Positions 15,041 to 25,502 of a stretch of DNA of 64,000 nucleotides are shown here, piece after piece. The stretch's first letter is position 1. Every line of letters begins with the position of its first letter. Made by a program: the position numbers and the translations under genes. Source of the DNA: Akkermansiaceae bacterium (GTDB lineage: Bacteria > Verrucomicrobiota > Verrucomicrobiia > Verrucomicrobiales > Akkermansiaceae); assembly GCA_021200315.1 (NCBI GenBank), contig JAJQGU010000073.1:20012-84011 (forward strand), given 5' to 3'. A model generated the notes under the pieces. It ran no database searches. It saw nothing but the letters and a program-made list of their open reading frames with translations, and had not been told where the DNA came from.

Positions 15041-16690
15041 TCACAAGTAGTTTCCTATCGATCGAATCGTGCGATAAATTTCCCGGTGCTCGGCCAAGAG
15101 GGGGGCGAGCTGCTCCGTGTTGCGCGTCACTTTAAGACGCGGTTCGGTGAAGAGTTTGCGGTAAGCCGAGACGCGCGAGACGAGCAGTTGCTGCAGAGCC
15201 GGCCGCAGAATTTCGGTCACGGTCATTTGCAGCGGTGCGGAAAATTCTTCGATGCGGCGTTTCAGGCGCGCTTTCTCCCACCAGAGAATAGTGCAGCCGA
15301 TCAACCAAACCAGCGCACAGACGGAAAGACTCGCCAGCCCCAGCGTATGGTGGCCGAGTCCTCCGAAGATGCCGGCTGTGATGATGAAGAACAGAGTCAT
15401 GTAGATGATGCGCGTCATCCAAGTGATTTGCTCATGGCATATATTAATTAGAAACGGCTTGACGCCCAATTTATTCAGGGGTTTGTACATCATGTGCCCC
15501 AGTTCTCTGCGCAGTGTCTGCAATTCTTCTTCCAGCTGTTTCTCCGGGAATTCGCCTATATCGCATTCGAGCTTTTGTTTCATGCGGGGGCGAATCTGAA
15601 CCCAGTTTTCGCGGCAGGAAAAGATGAAAGCGCGGTCCTGCGCCTCTTGCCGCCTTTCAATCGCCCTGCGGACGAGATTGTAATATAATCCGTCGACCTT
15701 TTCTCCCAGGCGTTCGAGTTGAAGCATCTTGCCGGGCGTCACCAGAAAACCGAACCGCCAGGAGAGCATGTTCGACAAGTCGGGAACAAGTGACTGCACG
15801 ATATGCCCCAAGCCTTGAACCTGCCTGGGAATGCTTTCGGCCTGCTGGCGTTGAAAGACGTCGATCTCGCTGTCGATGCCGCTCAAAAAGCCGCTGTCTG
15901 TGCGAAGCATCTGATTGCGCCGCCGGAGTATGCTGGCCTGTTCGTCCAAGAGGTTCACTGCGGCCGTGTAGAGCCGGTGCAGATCACCCCTGAGCAGGGA
16001 GGGAGAATCGAGCGCATCCTGCACGCGCTCGGCGAAGACATCGAGACCCGTGCCTTGGATTGTCCCGCCGGGCGTTACTTGGTAGAGGGGCAGCTCTATG
16101 CCGAGGCGTTTCATACTCAGTTCCCGGATCTGCGCTTTGATCGTCCGGATGTCTTCGGGAGAGCGGCGGTCGCAGTGGGTCAGCGCAATGATGCGCAGAG
16201 TACGGAAGCCCTCCGGCAAGCCGGAGAGCAGCTCCCATGCGGAGGGGCACCAAGGGTTGTCGCCGCCCATGACCGCAATCACGAGATCGCTTTCCGCCAA
16301 AAGGGGAGCTATTGCCTGGCGCACGGCATTTTCGCGGCAATCGCCGGTGTCGACGAGCTCCAGCCGGTCGAGCTGGTAGTCCCCCAGAAACCGGGAATTC
16401 TCCGAATCGCCGTCGTCATTGCCGAGACGCCAGCGGATGAAGTGCGCTTTCATCTCATGGGCGGCGATGCAGGGAATGCCGAGCAGCCCGGCGATCAAAG
16501 ACGATTTGCCGCAGCCTTTTTCTCCGATGATGACAATGCGGCGCGTGCGCGCGACAAGAGCCAGCCTTTTTTCCACTTCGGGCGCCATGGCGGAAGGCTC
16601 GTCGGAGTCGATTTTCCGGCAAAGCTCCAGGGAGCGTCCGGCCCAATACCGCACGATGCTTTCTGTTCTTCTGAAATTGCGTTTCAGCAT
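15041..16690 (-). CDS. Dynamin-like / P-loop GTPase with C-terminal transmembrane hairpin (549 aa)
   Basis: Walker A GEKGCGKSS, Walker B-like LELVDTGD, G4-like LTHCD, long helical middle, two C-terminal hydrophobic segments (IIYMTLFFIITAGIFGGLG; LASLSVCALVWLIGCTILWW). Confidence 0.6.
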   Translation of the reverse strand: MLKRNFRRTESIVRYWAGRSLELCRKIDSDEPSAMAPEVEKRLALVARTRRIVIIGEKGCGKSSLIAGLLGIPCIAAHEMKAHFIRWRLGNDDGDSENSRFLGDYQLDRLELVDTGDCRENAVRQAIAPLLAESDLVIAVMGGDNPWCPSAWELLSGLPEGFRTLRIIALTHCDRRSPEDIRTIKAQIRELSMKRLGIELPLYQVTPGGTIQGTGLDVFAERVQDALDSPSLLRGDLHRLYTAAVNLLDEQASILRRRNQMLRTDSGFLSGIDSEIDVFQRQQAESIPRQVQGLGHIVQSLVPDLSNMLSWRFGFLVTPGKMLQLERLGEKVDGLYYNLVRRAIERRQEAQDRAFIFSCRENWVQIRPRMKQKLECDIGEFPEKQLEEELQTLRRELGHMMYKPLNKLGVKPFLINICHEQITWMTRIIYMTLFFIITAGIFGGLGHHTLGLASLSVCALVWLIGCTILWWEKARLKRRIEEFSAPLQMTVTEILRPALQQLLVSRVSAYRKLFTEPRLKVTRNTEQLAPLLAEHREIYRTIRSIGNYL

Positions 16691-18241: not shown

Positions 18242-21200
18242 ATGAAGCTGCGAATGTCTCCCATACGTTGTTCATTGATTCTCCTGAGCTTGTGTTCTCT
18301 GCTCCACGCGCAGGGGACGGCACCGGCCGAGCCGCCCGCGGAGCGGCGGACGCCCGAATTCGCCAAGGAAGAATCGCTCCGTCAGGATCCGGAACTGGTC
18401 GTCGGGACGCTCCCCAACGGCCTGTCCTACATGATCCGTCCCACGGCGGAGCCGAAAGGGCGCATGAGTGTGCGGCTTTATGTGGATGTGGGCTCTCTCA
18501 ATGAAAATGAGAGCAACAGCGGCATTTCCCATTTCATTGAACATTTGGAATTCAATGGCAGCCGAACATTCAAGCGGGGCGAGCTCATCCCGGCGATGCA
18601 GCGCCTCGGTCTTGGATTCGGGGGAGATGCCAATGCCTACACGAGCCTTGAGCAAACCGTTTATATGCTCGATCTGCCCAACCTGAAGGACGAGACGGTG
18701 GATTTTGCCATGAAAATCATGCGCGACTTCGGCGACGGCGCGACGATGGATGCGGAAGCTATCGAAAAAGAGCGCGGAATCGTGGTGAGCGAGCTCAAGA
18801 CGCGGGATTCCCTGGCCTATCGAGCCATGGTGAATATGCTGGATTTCCAATTGCCGGGCACCCGTGCGGCGCATTTCCTCCCGATTGGCAGGGAGGAAAT
18901 CATCAACAGCATCACCAAACAGCAGGTGGATGATTATTATGGTACGCATTATGTGCCGGAAAACATGACTGTGATTCTCGCGGGGGACATTACGGTGGAG
19001 CAGGGCCGGGCATGGGTGGAAAAATACTTCGGTTCCATGGAACGCAAGGCCAAGCCGAAACCGCGCGACATCGGGGAGCTCAAACTGCCGCGTGAACTTC
19101 GCGCCAAGGTCTTCCCCAATCCGGAAGACGGTTTGGTGACGATTTTTGTCAATTCCATTTCTCCCGCCCGCAATGAGAAAGACACGGAAGCGCAGCGCCT
19201 CAAAGATCTGCCGCTCGAAATGGCCAATCTGATGCTCAATCTGCGGTTCGCCAAGATGGCACGGAAGGGCGATGCGCCCTTTTTGCAGGCCAAAATGGAT
19301 CAGGACACTCTTTTCAAGACGGCGGACGTGGCCTCGCTTGTCATCCGCTGCAATTCGGAACAATGGAGAGAGGCTCTCGAAGTGGCGGAACGCGAGCGGG
19401 CCGGCGCCTGCGTCTATGGGTTCAGCGATGCCGAATTCAAGGAAGCCTGTGCGGTGGTTGAGAACGCGCTGCTCAATTCCATCTCTTCATGGAAGACAGC
19501 TCGCGCGGAAGCCGTTGCCGCGCAGCTTATCGAATCCATCAGCGACGAAACGGTGCACACCGCTCCCGAAGAAGATCTCCGCATTTTCCGCAAGGCCAGA
19601 GAAACCATGACGCCCAAGGAGTGCCAGGAGGCTCTCCGCGGGGTGTGGAGGCCGGAAGGCTTCATCCCCTCGCCGACGGTCATGGCCACGGGCAAGACGC
19701 CTCCCGACATGACGGACGAGGCGTTGTTCCAAGCTTACACGCATGCGGCGGCGAAAGAGCCGGCCCGGCCTGAGGCTGTGGAAGAGAAGCCTTTTGCCTA
19801 TGAATGGGTCGGGGATCCCGGACGCGTCGTCTCCAGCACTGATCTCGATGATTTGGGCGTGAGACAGCTTGTCCTGAGCAACGGCGTGCGCGTGAATTTG
19901 AAGCCCACCCCCTATTCTCAGGGAGAGATTCTTGTGGCGGCGGCCATCGATGGCGGCCGCATGAGCCAGCCCGCCGGAAAACCCGGCTTGAACGCGCTCG
20001 CCGCGGCCGTGATCAACCAAGGGGGGCTCGAAGCGCATTCCGTCACTGATTTGCAGCGCATTTTCGCCGGGCGTACAGTCGCCTCAAACTTTTCGGTGGA
20101 TGACGAACGCTTTTTCTTCCAAGGCGCGACTACGCCGCGGGATCTCGAGCTGCACCTGAAGGTGTTGGCGGCGCGCATTCTGCATCCCGGCTACCGCCCC
20201 GAGGCCGAAATACAGTTCCGCCGCATGCTGCCGGCCGCTTATGCCCGGTTGACGCACGAGGCTTCGGGCGTATTCCGGACAAAGGCTCCGAGCATTCTTT
20301 CAGCCGGGGATGAACGGTTCTCCCAGCCCGAGCAGCGGGAAATGGAGAAACGGACGTCGCAGGAAGTGCGCGAATGGCTTTCCCCCTGGCTGCGCGAAGG
20401 CGCCTTGGAGGTGACCATCATCGGCGATTTCGACCCGGAAGAGGCCGGCAAGCTCGTCGAATCGACGTTGGGCGCGATGCCGCCGCGCTCCGAAAATGCC
20501 GTTGAGGTGCCGGATGCCCGGCGGACCGTCCGGACGACCGGCTGGAAAGACGTCCGCACACTTACTTGCGAGTCGTCCGTCGACAAGACCGTCGTGGCAC
20601 AAATCCTCCCCTGCGGCAATGGGCGCGACAGGCTCCGCAACCGCCGCCTGCAGATTCTTGGCAGGATCGTCAAGGAACGCGCTTTTGACGCGATTCGAGC
20701 CGAATTGGGCGAATCTTACGGTCCGACGGTCAGCGTGCAGCCCCGCGACGCCTACGAAGGCTTCGCCACCATGACGATCGCCAGCTCGGGCGTGCTGCGC
20801 AACCGGTACAAGGTCAATGCGGCCATCAATGTCATTGCCTCGCGCCTGGCTCAGGGAACCATCACGCAGGATGAACTGGATCGCGCGTTGAAGCCCCGCT
20901 TGGCCGATGTGGAGAAGGCCAAGCGCAGCAACGCTTTCTGGCTTGCCTTGGCTGTGAGCCAGGCGAGGCCCGAAGACCTGGAGCTCATCCGCGGCATGGA
21001 GCGGGATCTCCGGAGTATCACTCTCGATGAGATCAATGCGCTTGCACGCGAGGTGTTCGGCAGCGACAGCGCGGCGTCCTTCTACGTTCTGCCCGATTCC
21101 GTGCCCGGCCATGAGATCGGGGAAGGCACGTCGACCCCGGCGGACGATCCCGCCATTCATCCCGAAGCGCCGTCTGAAGTGCAGGCCGAGGCGGGATCGG

Positions 21201-22705
21201 CTTCGGGCGCCGCTTTTGCGCCGGGGAAGGCGGGAAGTTCCGGGTATGCGGTTCTGATCGGCGCTGAGACGGCCCGCAAGTCCGGCTGGCTCGAAGTTGC
21301 CGTCGAGCTGGCGACTCGGCACGGCGGAAAGGTGCTCGTTTCGCCGGGCGGCATTGAGGACGGCGCCGAGCTGCTCGAACGCGAGGCTCCCCGCTATCTT
21401 GCGGTGGTGGGCCGCGCCGGGGAATTCAATCGGGAGACCGTCAATTTCCTGCATCGGGTGACCCGCCGGTTTGACGCAGACCCTTACGGCGATTGCATCT
21501 GGGGCATCGTCACAGGCCCCGACGCCTCTGCGGCCATGAGGCTGGCGGAAGAACGGCCTCCCCTCGTCGTCAAGCGGGCGGGCGGCACGACCAATCTCTC
21601 CCCCGGCCGCTTTGAAACGTGCGTGTGCATTACAGACTGGGCTCCTTTTCTGGTACAGCAGACGCGCGACGGCGTCACTTGCAGCGTTATGTACGACAAG
21701 CAGACAACCGGGGAAGAATTCTCCCGGCGCATTCCCAAGGAAGGCGTCGTGTGGAAATTCGCCGACATGCTCGAGAATGACGCGCTCCAGCTTCTCGTCA
21801 CTTCGTCGCACGCCACGGTCTACAATCTCGAAATGCCTTTTGAGAAGGGACTCATCATCTCGGGGAAGGGGCGCTACCATGTGCTGACCATGGCCGATAA
21901 GCCCGAATATGCGGGCGCTCTCGCCCGCGAAAAGAACGAAGGCGAGCAGCCCATTCTCGAGCTGATCGGGCGGAAGAACTACCCGCAGATAAAGCCGGAC
22001 GGCGAAACGCGCATTTGGCTTGCGGCGGGCAACTGCCTGTTCGGCGATGCTCACAGCTCTCCCAATTCGATGGCGATCACGGCTTTAGGCAGTTACGGGT
22101 GCCGTCAGCTCGCCGGTTACACGGTTCCTTCCTGGTATGGAGCCGCGGGGTGGGGCGCGCTTCAGCTTTTCTTCGGCAATCACGACGCGTCAAGCTTTGC
22201 CGAGGCGTGTTATCTGAACAACCAGTTCATTCTCGAGCGCACACTGCGGGAGTATCCCCGTCTCATGAGCGTGAATTTCGACTTGCCCGAGCTGGGAGCC
22301 GATCTGGGGGCGCAGAGGCAGTTCATCTTCTCTCTGCTGCAGACGGGCTGCAAGCTCGACAGGGATGCGATGGGGCTCGTGCATGATCGGGACGTCTTTG
22401 CCTTCTATGGCGACCCGAAATGGACGGCCCGCCTCGACGAGTCGCGTGAGCAGTCTCCCTGGCATATCGTCCCCGGAGAGCGGGGGCTCGTCATTACGGC
22501 CAACGCCGACGCGGAAGGGCGCGTCGCCTTCTGGTTCCCCGAGCGGCTGGCGCAGCTGCCCGCAAAAGCCGTGCTCCGCACGCCCGCGGGGGAGCGGCCC
22601 CTTGAAGAGGCCGGCGTGTTGACGAACGATTTCCTTCTCATCCGCGAGCTCAAGCTCGGGAAGGGAGAAGCCGCCATCGTGGAATGGGCGGGGCAGGAGG
22701 GGTGA
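18242..22705 (+). CDS. M16 (pitrilysin/insulinase-like) zinc metalloprotease with about 490-aa C-terminal extra domain (1487 aa)
   Basis: Signal peptide; HFIEH inverted zinc motif with downstream E (KERGIVVSELK); second M16 unit; residues about 1001-1487 are a distinct alpha/beta-looking region. Confidence 0.85.
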   Translation: MKLRMSPIRCSLILLSLCSLLHAQGTAPAEPPAERRTPEFAKEESLRQDPELVVGTLPNGLSYMIRPTAEPKGRMSVRLYVDVGSLNENESNSGISHFIEHLEFNGSRTFKRGELIPAMQRLGLGFGGDANAYTSLEQTVYMLDLPNLKDETVDFAMKIMRDFGDGATMDAEAIEKERGIVVSELKTRDSLAYRAMVNMLDFQLPGTRAAHFLPIGREEIINSITKQQVDDYYGTHYVPENMTVILAGDITVEQGRAWVEKYFGSMERKAKPKPRDIGELKLPRELRAKVFPNPEDGLVTIFVNSISPARNEKDTEAQRLKDLPLEMANLMLNLRFAKMARKGDAPFLQAKMDQDTLFKTADVASLVIRCNSEQWREALEVAERERAGACVYGFSDAEFKEACAVVENALLNSISSWKTARAEAVAAQLIESISDETVHTAPEEDLRIFRKARETMTPKECQEALRGVWRPEGFIPSPTVMATGKTPPDMTDEALFQAYTHAAAKEPARPEAVEEKPFAYEWVGDPGRVVSSTDLDDLGVRQLVLSNGVRVNLKPTPYSQGEILVAAAIDGGRMSQPAGKPGLNALAAAVINQGGLEAHSVTDLQRIFAGRTVASNFSVDDERFFFQGATTPRDLELHLKVLAARILHPGYRPEAEIQFRRMLPAAYARLTHEASGVFRTKAPSILSAGDERFSQPEQREMEKRTSQEVREWLSPWLREGALEVTIIGDFDPEEAGKLVESTLGAMPPRSENAVEVPDARRTVRTTGWKDVRTLTCESSVDKTVVAQILPCGNGRDRLRNRRLQILGRIVKERAFDAIRAELGESYGPTVSVQPRDAYEGFATMTIASSGVLRNRYKVNAAINVIASRLAQGTITQDELDRALKPRLADVEKAKRSNAFWLALAVSQARPEDLELIRGMERDLRSITLDEINALAREVFGSDSAASFYVLPDSVPGHEIGEGTSTPADDPAIHPEAPSEVQAEAGSASGAAFAPGKAGSSGYAVLIGAETARKSGWLEVAVELATRHGGKVLVSPGGIEDGAELLEREAPRYLAVVGRAGEFNRETVNFLHRVTRRFDADPYGDCIWGIVTGPDASAAMRLAEERPPLVVKRAGGTTNLSPGRFETCVCITDWAPFLVQQTRDGVTCSVMYDKQTTGEEFSRRIPKEGVVWKFADMLENDALQLLVTSSHATVYNLEMPFEKGLIISGKGRYHVLTMADKPEYAGALAREKNEGEQPILELIGRKNYPQIKPDGETRIWLAAGNCLFGDAHSSPNSMAITALGSYGCRQLAGYTVPSWYGAAGWGALQLFFGNHDASSFAEACYLNNQFILERTLREYPRLMSVNFDLPELGADLGAQRQFIFSLLQTGCKLDRDAMGLVHDRDVFAFYGDPKWTARLDESREQSPWHIVPGERGLVITANADAEGRVAFWFPERLAQLPAKAVLRTPAGERPLEEAGVLTNDFLLIRELKLGKGEAAIVEWAGQEG

Positions 22706-22830: not shown

Positions 22831-24168
22831 CTATGTGATTCTTTTGATGAAAGCTTGTTCGTTCGCCTGCATCTCTTTGCGGAAGGCACCATAATCGCCG
22901 ACGTCCTGCGGAATTACCAGACCACAATTAACAACCGTTACATCCTCTCTCGGTGAAACGTCACTATCGTAGGTTGAACCTCTGTTCAGCCGGTACACAA
23001 CGTCTTCCTTCGACTGTTTTTCGGGATAGAGGAGATATCCCTTCTTCGCGTCAAAGCGGAACATGTATGCTAGAAGCTGCTGATAGTCTGAATTCTTGAG
23101 CTTTTTTTTGTACTTGGCGTCCGCGATGATGCGCCTTTCCTTGTCCTTGCTGATAAAGTCCGGATAAATCTCCGGCTCTTTTTTGTTATTTTGTTGTTCG
23201 GTAAACAGATGTTGAGTGCCTCTATGACGGCGGTTATCCGGATGATGAAATAGCTCGCTGATGAGCTCTGCCACGTACTCTTCCCATAGCCATGCCCCGT
23301 CAAATAGAACTCCGTAGATGCGGTGTGAGCCCGAACCCGGCCGGTGCCATGCCTGCTTTAATATCCAAATGCACAGGCGCTGCAGATCGCGATATTCATG
23401 GTAATAGGCGTGCCTGACCGGCATGCGGACATTTTCAGCGACGACTCTCATCTTGTCACAGGGATCGTACTTGGGAGTGGCTTCTCTCACACGCTCCGCC
23501 TCATCTCGCACTCCGGCAAGAATGCGATTGCCGAACTTTCGTTTGATGAACTCAATGGTGTGACGCACCAGCTCCATCAGGTAATTGTCGTCAGAATATT
23601 CCCGCCGGCTGTATGCCACATTCCCGATGAACGGGATATTCCGTGCGATATGCCTTGCAATGTCTATCGTGCCTCTGACTTTGCTGTCATTGTAGTGGTG
23701 GCGGATATAGGTTTTAAAAATCCCTTTTCTCAGCGCTCTTCTCAGATAATCCGGGAACAGGAGCAGAGGCAAATTCAGAATCCTCTCTTCTTGAGAAGCA
23801 TCGGTCGGCAGATCGATCCCTTTTGCGGGCCCCTTGGTAAGCAAATAGTGCAAGAAAGCATTACTGTCATTGCCTGCGAAGCAGGATGTGATAACAAGCC
23901 GTTCATTCTCCAAGCCAAGAAACCCCATGATATTTCCTGAAAGGTAATCAGAGCCATTGCTCCGAAGGATACGCTGCTCCCCACTTGAAGATGGCTCCTT
24001 TGCAGAATTGAGTGGAAAAATGAGCACCCCCTCGCTCTCAAGATCACTCAGTTTCTTGTCCGCGATCTTGCTGGTCAGGGCTGGGATTACATCGAAATTT
24101 TTTTGCGGCTCCGGGGTGTTATCCTTGATTGTGAGATGGTTATCCGTTTTCATCGCCGCCGTCATCAA
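22831..24168 (-). CDS. McrC-like 5-methylcytosine-type restriction nuclease subunit
   Basis: McrC family layout with LLFPDYLRRALRKGIFKTYI...KVRGTIDIARHI and PD-(D/E)xK motif IYPDFISKDKERRIIADAKYKK; 4-nt overlap with McrB-like gene. Confidence 0.88.
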   Translation of the reverse strand: MMTAAMKTDNHLTIKDNTPEPQKNFDVIPALTSKIADKKLSDLESEGVLIFPLNSAKEPSSSGEQRILRSNGSDYLSGNIMGFLGLENERLVITSCFAGNDSNAFLHYLLTKGPAKGIDLPTDASQEERILNLPLLLFPDYLRRALRKGIFKTYIRHHYNDSKVRGTIDIARHIARNIPFIGNVAYSRREYSDDNYLMELVRHTIEFIKRKFGNRILAGVRDEAERVREATPKYDPCDKMRVVAENVRMPVRHAYYHEYRDLQRLCIWILKQAWHRPGSGSHRIYGVLFDGAWLWEEYVAELISELFHHPDNRRHRGTQHLFTEQQNNKKEPEIYPDFISKDKERRIIADAKYKKKLKNSDYQQLLAYMFRFDAKKGYLLYPEKQSKEDVVYRLNRGSTYDSDVSPREDVTVVNCGLVIPQDVGDYGAFRKEMQANEQAFIKRIT

Positions 24169-25502
24169 TCTGACTTTTTATTATTTGCCCGCCGCATATC
24201 ATATGCATTTTTAAATTCATTCAGCACATCTTTTTTTTCTTCGCAATAGATGCCCTGAATATACATGCGCAGAAGCGGCTCAAGGTGGTCTTCCCACAGC
24301 CGTTTAAAGTCAAACTTGAGGCCTTCCAGTTTCAAAAAATATGCCGGGCCAATCTGATAGTATGCATTTAAGCCTTCTTCAGCCCTGATGCGATCATTCA
24401 ATGCCTTCATGCGGCTACGAGCTTCCGTTGCCTTATCGTCAAGAGTAGCCAGCATTTCATGGTTCTCGTCCGCTGGGAGCTCGATAAAGCGGAAGCGCCG
24501 CCGCATGGCAAAGTCGAAGCTGTCCACGGATTTGTCAATATCATTCATAGTGCCGATGATGTAGACATTCTCCGGTATGTAGAACTTCTCGTTAGGATCT
24601 GAATGAAGATTGGAATACTGCGTTTGGATCTCACATTTAGACCCCCGATAATCGGGATCTATGGCAAAGAACAGCTCCCCGAAGATCTTTGATATTTCCC
24701 CGCGGTTGATCTCGTCAATGATAAAGACGTACTCCTTTTCCTGACTTGTTTCGGGAGTCCGATTGGGATTCTCCTCTCGAATAGCTTTGCAGATCGCCCA
24801 ATAATAAGACAAGAGTTGATGGTTTCCTTTAAAGTTAGGAAGGACATTCTTAATGTCTTTGGGTTGTGGAAACTCTTTGCCGGATTCAAGTAGTTGCGCC
24901 ATATTCTTCATGTCTTTTTCGGTGAAGACTATATCAGATATTTTGTTATCTGGAACGTGGGCGGCATATTTCTCTTTGAAGATTGAGATTGTGAATTTTC
25001 TATTACGCTCCGGAGTATTTGTATACCGAGATAACTCCTGCCCACTTTCTTTCCATTTTTCAAGAAAATGTTCCAGCGTTTCTCGTGCTCCATACTCCCT
25101 TACATTTTCTCCGGTTTCCCGGGAATCTTTATCCTCTTTCTGGGCACGCTTAACAAATTCCATAAATATACCGTCCTTCCTTTCAAAGCCTATAGAACCG
25201 TCTTCTTTACCCTTTGTTGGCCGCAGCCCTTCCACAAAATCCGTATAATCATAGCTTGGGTGAAACTGGACGAATCCCGTCTGTTCCTTCTCCTGCTTGG
25301 TCAGCTCCCTCCAAACCTTGGTGCGACCCTGGCTGACAATATATGCGGCAATTTGGTTGGCCAGATAGGTCTTGCCGGTGCCCGGCGCGCCGTGGAAGAT
25401 GATGTTCTTCGAGGCGCGCAACATGTCAGAATAGCGAAGCACCGTGTTTCTTTCCGCAAGCGGTATCTTCTGCTGAGTGTTGTTCTTTTCTTGATCTTCC
25501 AT
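24165..25502 (-). CDS. McrB-like AAA+ GTPase/ATPase subunit
   Basis: GAPGTGKTYLANQIA, FVQFHPSYDYTDFVEGLRP, FIIDEINRGEISKIFGELFFAID, GTMNDIDKSVDSFDFAMRRRFRF. Confidence 0.93.
   Translation of the reverse strand: MEDQEKNNTQQKIPLAERNTVLRYSDMLRASKNIIFHGAPGTGKTYLANQIAAYIVSQGRTKVWRELTKQEKEQTGFVQFHPSYDYTDFVEGLRPTKGKEDGSIGFERKDGIFMEFVKRAQKEDKDSRETGENVREYGARETLEHFLEKWKESGQELSRYTNTPERNRKFTISIFKEKYAAHVPDNKISDIVFTEKDMKNMAQLLESGKEFPQPKDIKNVLPNFKGNHQLLSYYWAICKAIREENPNRTPETSQEKEYVFIIDEINRGEISKIFGELFFAIDPDYRGSKCEIQTQYSNLHSDPNEKFYIPENVYIIGTMNDIDKSVDSFDFAMRRRFRFIELPADENHEMLATLDDKATEARSRMKALNDRIRAEEGLNAYYQIGPAYFLKLEGLKFDFKRLWEDHLEPLLRMYIQGIYCEEKKDVLNEFKNAYDMRRANNKKSD

Follow-up and report, generated by a model that had tools for sequence, protein, structure and literature searches.

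A candidate gingipain-related cysteine peptidase domain joined to an M16 zinc protease in Akkermansia, and its relatives in other PVC bacteria

A gene at positions 18242..22705 (+) of the window (the whole stretch of 64,000 nucleotides analysed here) was found to encode a 1487-aa protein in which family libraries recognise only an M16 protease and whose C-terminal third is predicted to be a gingipain-like domain. On the basis of sequence comparison and structural modelling, this domain is assigned to a C25-related family of clan CD which is new and unnamed in the databases searched, and a search of the open-access literature found no paper naming or describing it. The fold, the conserved His/Cys dyad and the association with M16, by fusion or adjacency, in one Akkermansia clade are computed results. 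The reading that we prefer, with a probability of roughly 0.7, is that residues ~1000–1487 constitute a C25-related cysteine peptidase domain which would be exported to the periplasm and cooperate there with the M16 part of the same chain.

The gene comprises a signal peptide, a two-half M16 unit, a linker and the gingipain-like domain with its Ig-like tail, all coordinates of its parts being on the forward strand (+). A probable Sec signal peptide, MKLRMSPIRCSLILLSLCSLLHAQ (18242..18313), opens the chain, with cleavage placed by eye near HA/QG. Pfam analysis of the ORF returned PF00675 at residues 69–192 and two PF05193 stretches, one of which (residues 223–403) makes up, with PF00675, the catalytic half of the M16 unit (18446..19450). 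This half carries the zinc motif HFIEH (residues 97–101, 18530–18544) and, downstream of it, ERGIVVSE from residue 177 (18770–18793). The second half (19880..21120, approximate limits) is degenerate with no HxxEH, and was recognised from the PF05193 stretches and from the match of residues 46–938 to 9ldy ("Peptidase, M16 family"; E 7.9e-55) in a PDB sequence search. The HxxEH motif, the downstream Glu and the two-half chain are all features of M16 metallopeptidases, in agreement with the preliminary description of this DNA, which had proposed an N-terminal M16 unit with a degenerate second half.

In the same search, residues 45–648 matched PqqL (6ofs, E 4.4e-51). The HxxEH site is common to 6ofs, 9ldy and the M16 part of the window protein, and the chains of the former two (913–916 aa) stop about where this part stops; they are without a C-terminal cysteine-peptidase-like domain, whereas the window protein has one. 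PqqL-type M16 enzymes act in the periplasm. Their being the closest relatives of the M16 part favours the periplasm as the most likely destination of the protein after export via its Sec signal peptide; the protein had previously been called "secreted", and periplasmic is the more likely description.

A low-complexity linker, PADDPAIHPEAPSEVQAEAGSASGAAFAPGKAG (21143..21241), was delimited by sequence following the M16 unit, and residues 1–9 of the structural model (990–998 of the protein) have a pLDDT below 50. The last ~490–500 residues, described earlier as not M16, gave no matches in Pfam, NCBIfam or PDB sequences by direct sequence and profile searches. From alignment and model, an N-terminal four-strand subdomain was placed at 21242..21550, with the invariant residues D1080 and D1084 (DPYGDCIWGIVTG). 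It is followed by the catalytic-type subdomain (21551..22423; alignment, model and fold match), which contains the strands ending in His1190 and Cys1265, a GYTVPSWYGAAGWG loop and the FYGDPKW terminus. Alignment and profile comparison point to His1190, within LLVTSSHATVYNLEMPF (codon 21809..21811), as the predicted catalytic histidine and to Cys1265, within RIWLAAGNCLFGDA (codon 22034..22036), as the predicted nucleophile, both at exactly the positions for which they had first been named. The remainder of the protein is a C-terminal all-beta (Ig-like) segment, as in RgpB and Kgp (22424..22702; predicted secondary structure and Foldseek), which is absent from several Kiritimatiellota-type members of the family.

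A single-sequence structure prediction was unusable (pLDDT 41) and was replaced by an AlphaFold model of the domain for which 63 aligned family sequences served as input, with a pLDDT of 94.4 and a pTM of 0.93. Four PDB chains were matched by Foldseek with E <0.001, every one of them a gingipain with a probability of 1.00; these were RgpB (4ief, E 4.5e-8 and 8.8e-8) and Kgp (6i9a, E 6.1e-8; 4rbm, E 3.7e-7). SAVED-CHAT and separase appeared below significance, and legumain was absent among the matches listed. As the TM-scores against the gingipains were 0.36–0.49 and the rmsd large, the likeness is one of topology and not of detail, and in the model both domain placement and details differ from those of the gingipains.

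The layout of C25 consists of a four-strand N-subdomain, a caspase-like subdomain in which His and Cys stand at the ends of strands, and an Ig-like domain of ~84 residues (PMC4357240, where the histidine is printed as His221 but its flanking residues imply 211). The model displays the same succession of four-strand N-subdomain, caspase-like C-subdomain and Ig-like domain. His201 (model numbering) follows strand 195–198 and Cys276 follows the later core strand 268–272, both residues standing just past the C-terminal ends of core strands of a caspase/gingipain-like fold, as in clan CD. A strand-His followed by a strand-Cys, within a possible gingipain- or caspase-like domain, had been read from the letters in the preliminary description; the model reproduces this arrangement, and the significant fold matches are to gingipains R and K and to no other fold.

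Relationships within clan CD were analysed using hhalign, with a C25 reference set of aligned PF01364-picked domains from Verrucomicrobiota-group genomes and with C14, C11 and CHAT collections as comparison sets. The broad family alignment (A1) matched C25 with a score of 36.9 (E 6e-4 local, ~1e-6 global), and the DWQ-type members alone with a score of 40.4 (E 2e-4). The motif GHATxxxW is paired with C25 GHGxxxW and GNCLxG with CxxG, so that dyad pairs with dyad, and in the global alignment the GDP ends of the family and C25 coincide as well. The maximum score of 40 column-permuted controls was 21.8 and that of a reversed control 17.5, and comparisons with C14, C11 and CHAT gave scores of 12.3–22.0 (P 0.06–0.75). 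These last three have the general dyad logic in common with the family but score at control level, and were rejected as nearest relatives; of the clan CD families first put forward, C25 is therefore retained and C14 is not. Given that C25–C14, C25–C11 and C14–C11 score 36.5–38.9 in the same test, C25 is the family closest to the domain, and the two are about as far apart as recognised clan CD families are from each other. The profile signal was lost with an Akkermansia-heavy alignment (A3; E 0.22), and detection of C25 therefore depends on the inclusion of distant members. There was no PF01364 match for the window domain nor for 30 family members, and judged by score the domain is not a member of PF01364.

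When compared to the C25 gingipains RgpB and Kgp (PF01364), the family has in common the predicted N-subdomain, caspase-like subdomain and Ig-like tail, and also His then Cys at strand ends, with GH...W, C..G and a terminal GDP in identical order. Unlike C25, it possesses the motifs GNCL and GYTxPxWxGxxGW and is fused to M16 or transglutaminase-like domains. RgpB has Asp163 as the acidic S1 residue for P1 Arg, and an inhibitory N-terminal prodomain of 229 aa. A prodomain of the gingipain type is absent from the family, and in many stand-alone members the signal peptide is followed closely by the domain. The spacing between His and Cys ranges from 49 to 77 residues across the family, whereas it is 33 in the first sequence of the C25 reference set. 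The 75 residues of the window copy are unusually long, as had been remarked at the outset, but since the family spans this range they represent an insertion and do not form an objection.

Of the 388 genomes of the phylum-level group that were searched, 72 encode the domain; they comprise the window's own genome, 21 congeners and genomes from many other families, in which it mostly occurs as a stand-alone protein. A scan of named genomes recovered it from Akkermansia, other Verrucomicrobiota (e.g., Haloferula), Opitutales, Kiritimatiellae, Lentisphaerae and Planctomycetota, and the phyla represented are Verrucomicrobiota, Kiritimatiellota, Lentisphaerota and Planctomycetota; none was found in the plasmid records searched. 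Thirty diverse members, 20–49% identical to the window domain, were aligned over 589 columns, of which 13 are invariant, His1190, Gly1263, Asn1264, Cys1265 and Leu1266 being among them. In a second set from named genomes (n = 63, partly overlapping the first), His was present in 60 and Cys in 62. The two residues singled out in the preliminary description are thus conserved among homologues, and their pattern is not due to chance, because they belong to just 13 invariant columns at low identity and are kept in the second set. Arg replaces His in three Planctomycetota/Phycisphaerales members (L123, L124, and L135; SGRAT for SGHAT) in which Cys is retained.

In a tree of 102 domains, all M16-linked members were located inside one Akkermansia clade, and fusion or adjacency to M16 is restricted to this clade. 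Most M16-linked loci are fusions, and the locus survey and the tree both show that the M16 fusion seen in the window is real and common in Akkermansia. The window genus is taken to be Akkermansia, and the nearest neighbor of the window copy in the tree is A. glycaniphila; the window copy itself has a long branch (0.70). Seven pairs had M16 and the domain as apparently separate genes (L059, L067, L069, L070, L080, L087, and L111). Four of these loci, belonging to three lineages (L059, L067, L087, and L111), seemingly contain true adjacent genes, and there the domain gene begins with its own signal-peptide-like start. L069 was rejected as a separate pair because its M16 part is interrupted by a frameshift, and frameshifts may also account for L070 and L080. 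Two loci within the M16-linked clade (L096 and L114) had no M16 gene in the ~6 kb examined.

The M16 zinc motif was intact in every sampled full-length fusion. Cys has been lost in six members of one Akkermansia subclade (L019, L020, L021, L025, L100, and L101), two of which are also without His, although the frames are open and the M16 HxxEH is intact. Judging from these sequences, the domain of this subclade is likely to be a natural pseudo-peptidase, and the loss of Cys in six members indicates that the domain can persist without catalysis and that some species can do without it. The same six members would be consistent with the Akkermansia domain in general, the window copy included, being a non-catalytic accessory of M16 with a role in docking, regulation or structural support. 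We consider this unlikely, as nearly every other fusion and every adjacent-gene form has both His and Cys. The window copy itself retains both residues and is probably an active cysteine peptidase.

The peptidase reading, in which catalysis, the place of the protein in the cell and the joint action of both sites are inferred, runs as follows. The Sec signal peptide would export the chain, most likely to the periplasm, where Cys1265 would act as nucleophile and His1190 as general base. The gingipain-like domain would serve as an endopeptidase making the first cuts in polypeptides that are imported or misfolded, leaving the resulting oligopeptides to be cut by the M16 chamber of PqqL/insulinase type.

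Other fusions were observed in PVC bacteria outside Akkermansia, where Transglut_core is fused at either end of the domain or encoded by an adjacent gene (L037, L038, L045, L049, L123, L124, L130, L132, and L135; L119:1168–2451), and in the five that were aligned the Cys of SCTG and the His of GNH are conserved. A GH127 beta-L-arabinofuranosidase-like enzyme precedes the domain in one long open frame (L046:828–4670), and EF-hand-like DANRDGFLEMSEL / DANHDGAIAMDDL segments precede it in the ORFs of L116 and L119.

The sortase-like step of type IX secretion is performed by PorU, a C25-related protein. It could be envisaged that the domain acts as a sortase or transpeptidase of C25 type resembling PorU, or as a processing enzyme for the release or anchoring of exported proteins, and not as a degradative endopeptidase, given that type IX secretion includes such a step (PMC4560394) and that the repeated transglutaminase-like fusions could fit acyl transfer. 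However, the partner in Akkermansia is an M16 of the degradative PqqL type, and the sampled stand-alone members showed neither a conserved gene neighborhood nor a common secretion or anchoring theme, which makes this role improbable. A function of His and Cys in metal or cofactor binding, or in some other hydrolase whose alpha/beta fold is related or convergent, would accord with the moderate TM-scores and with the Arg of the Phycisphaerales members, but is highly improbable in view of the C25 motif order over the whole length and the specific C25 profile match above controls.

If the domain is indeed a C25-related peptidase, then Akkermansia, a prominent gut genus that lives in mucus, would possess a cysteine peptidase of the gingipain type, for which Porphyromonas has so far been the best-known source, and a C25-related family not yet listed would be added for the PVC phyla. 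Separate genes, fusion and Cys-lost fusion form a natural series suited to testing the role of each active site. We see about even odds for the broader proposal that this PVC clan CD family, repeatedly joined to peptidase-like enzymes, with M16 as partner in Akkermansia and papain-fold transglutaminase-like domains in the others, provides single-chain two-step machines for degrading or modifying proteins, the Akkermansia form being a dual metallo/cysteine protease.

Amuc_0576 is a peptidase of the outer-membrane fraction which is higher on mucin (PMC4960237); it was considered as a counterpart of the window gene, but the connection could not be made. An McrBC-type pair consisting of a PF10117 protein and an AAA_5 protein lies next door to the gene (22831–25502, −), and a P-loop GTPase-like membrane protein (GEKGCGKSS) with no Pfam match is encoded at 15041–16690 (−) of the window.
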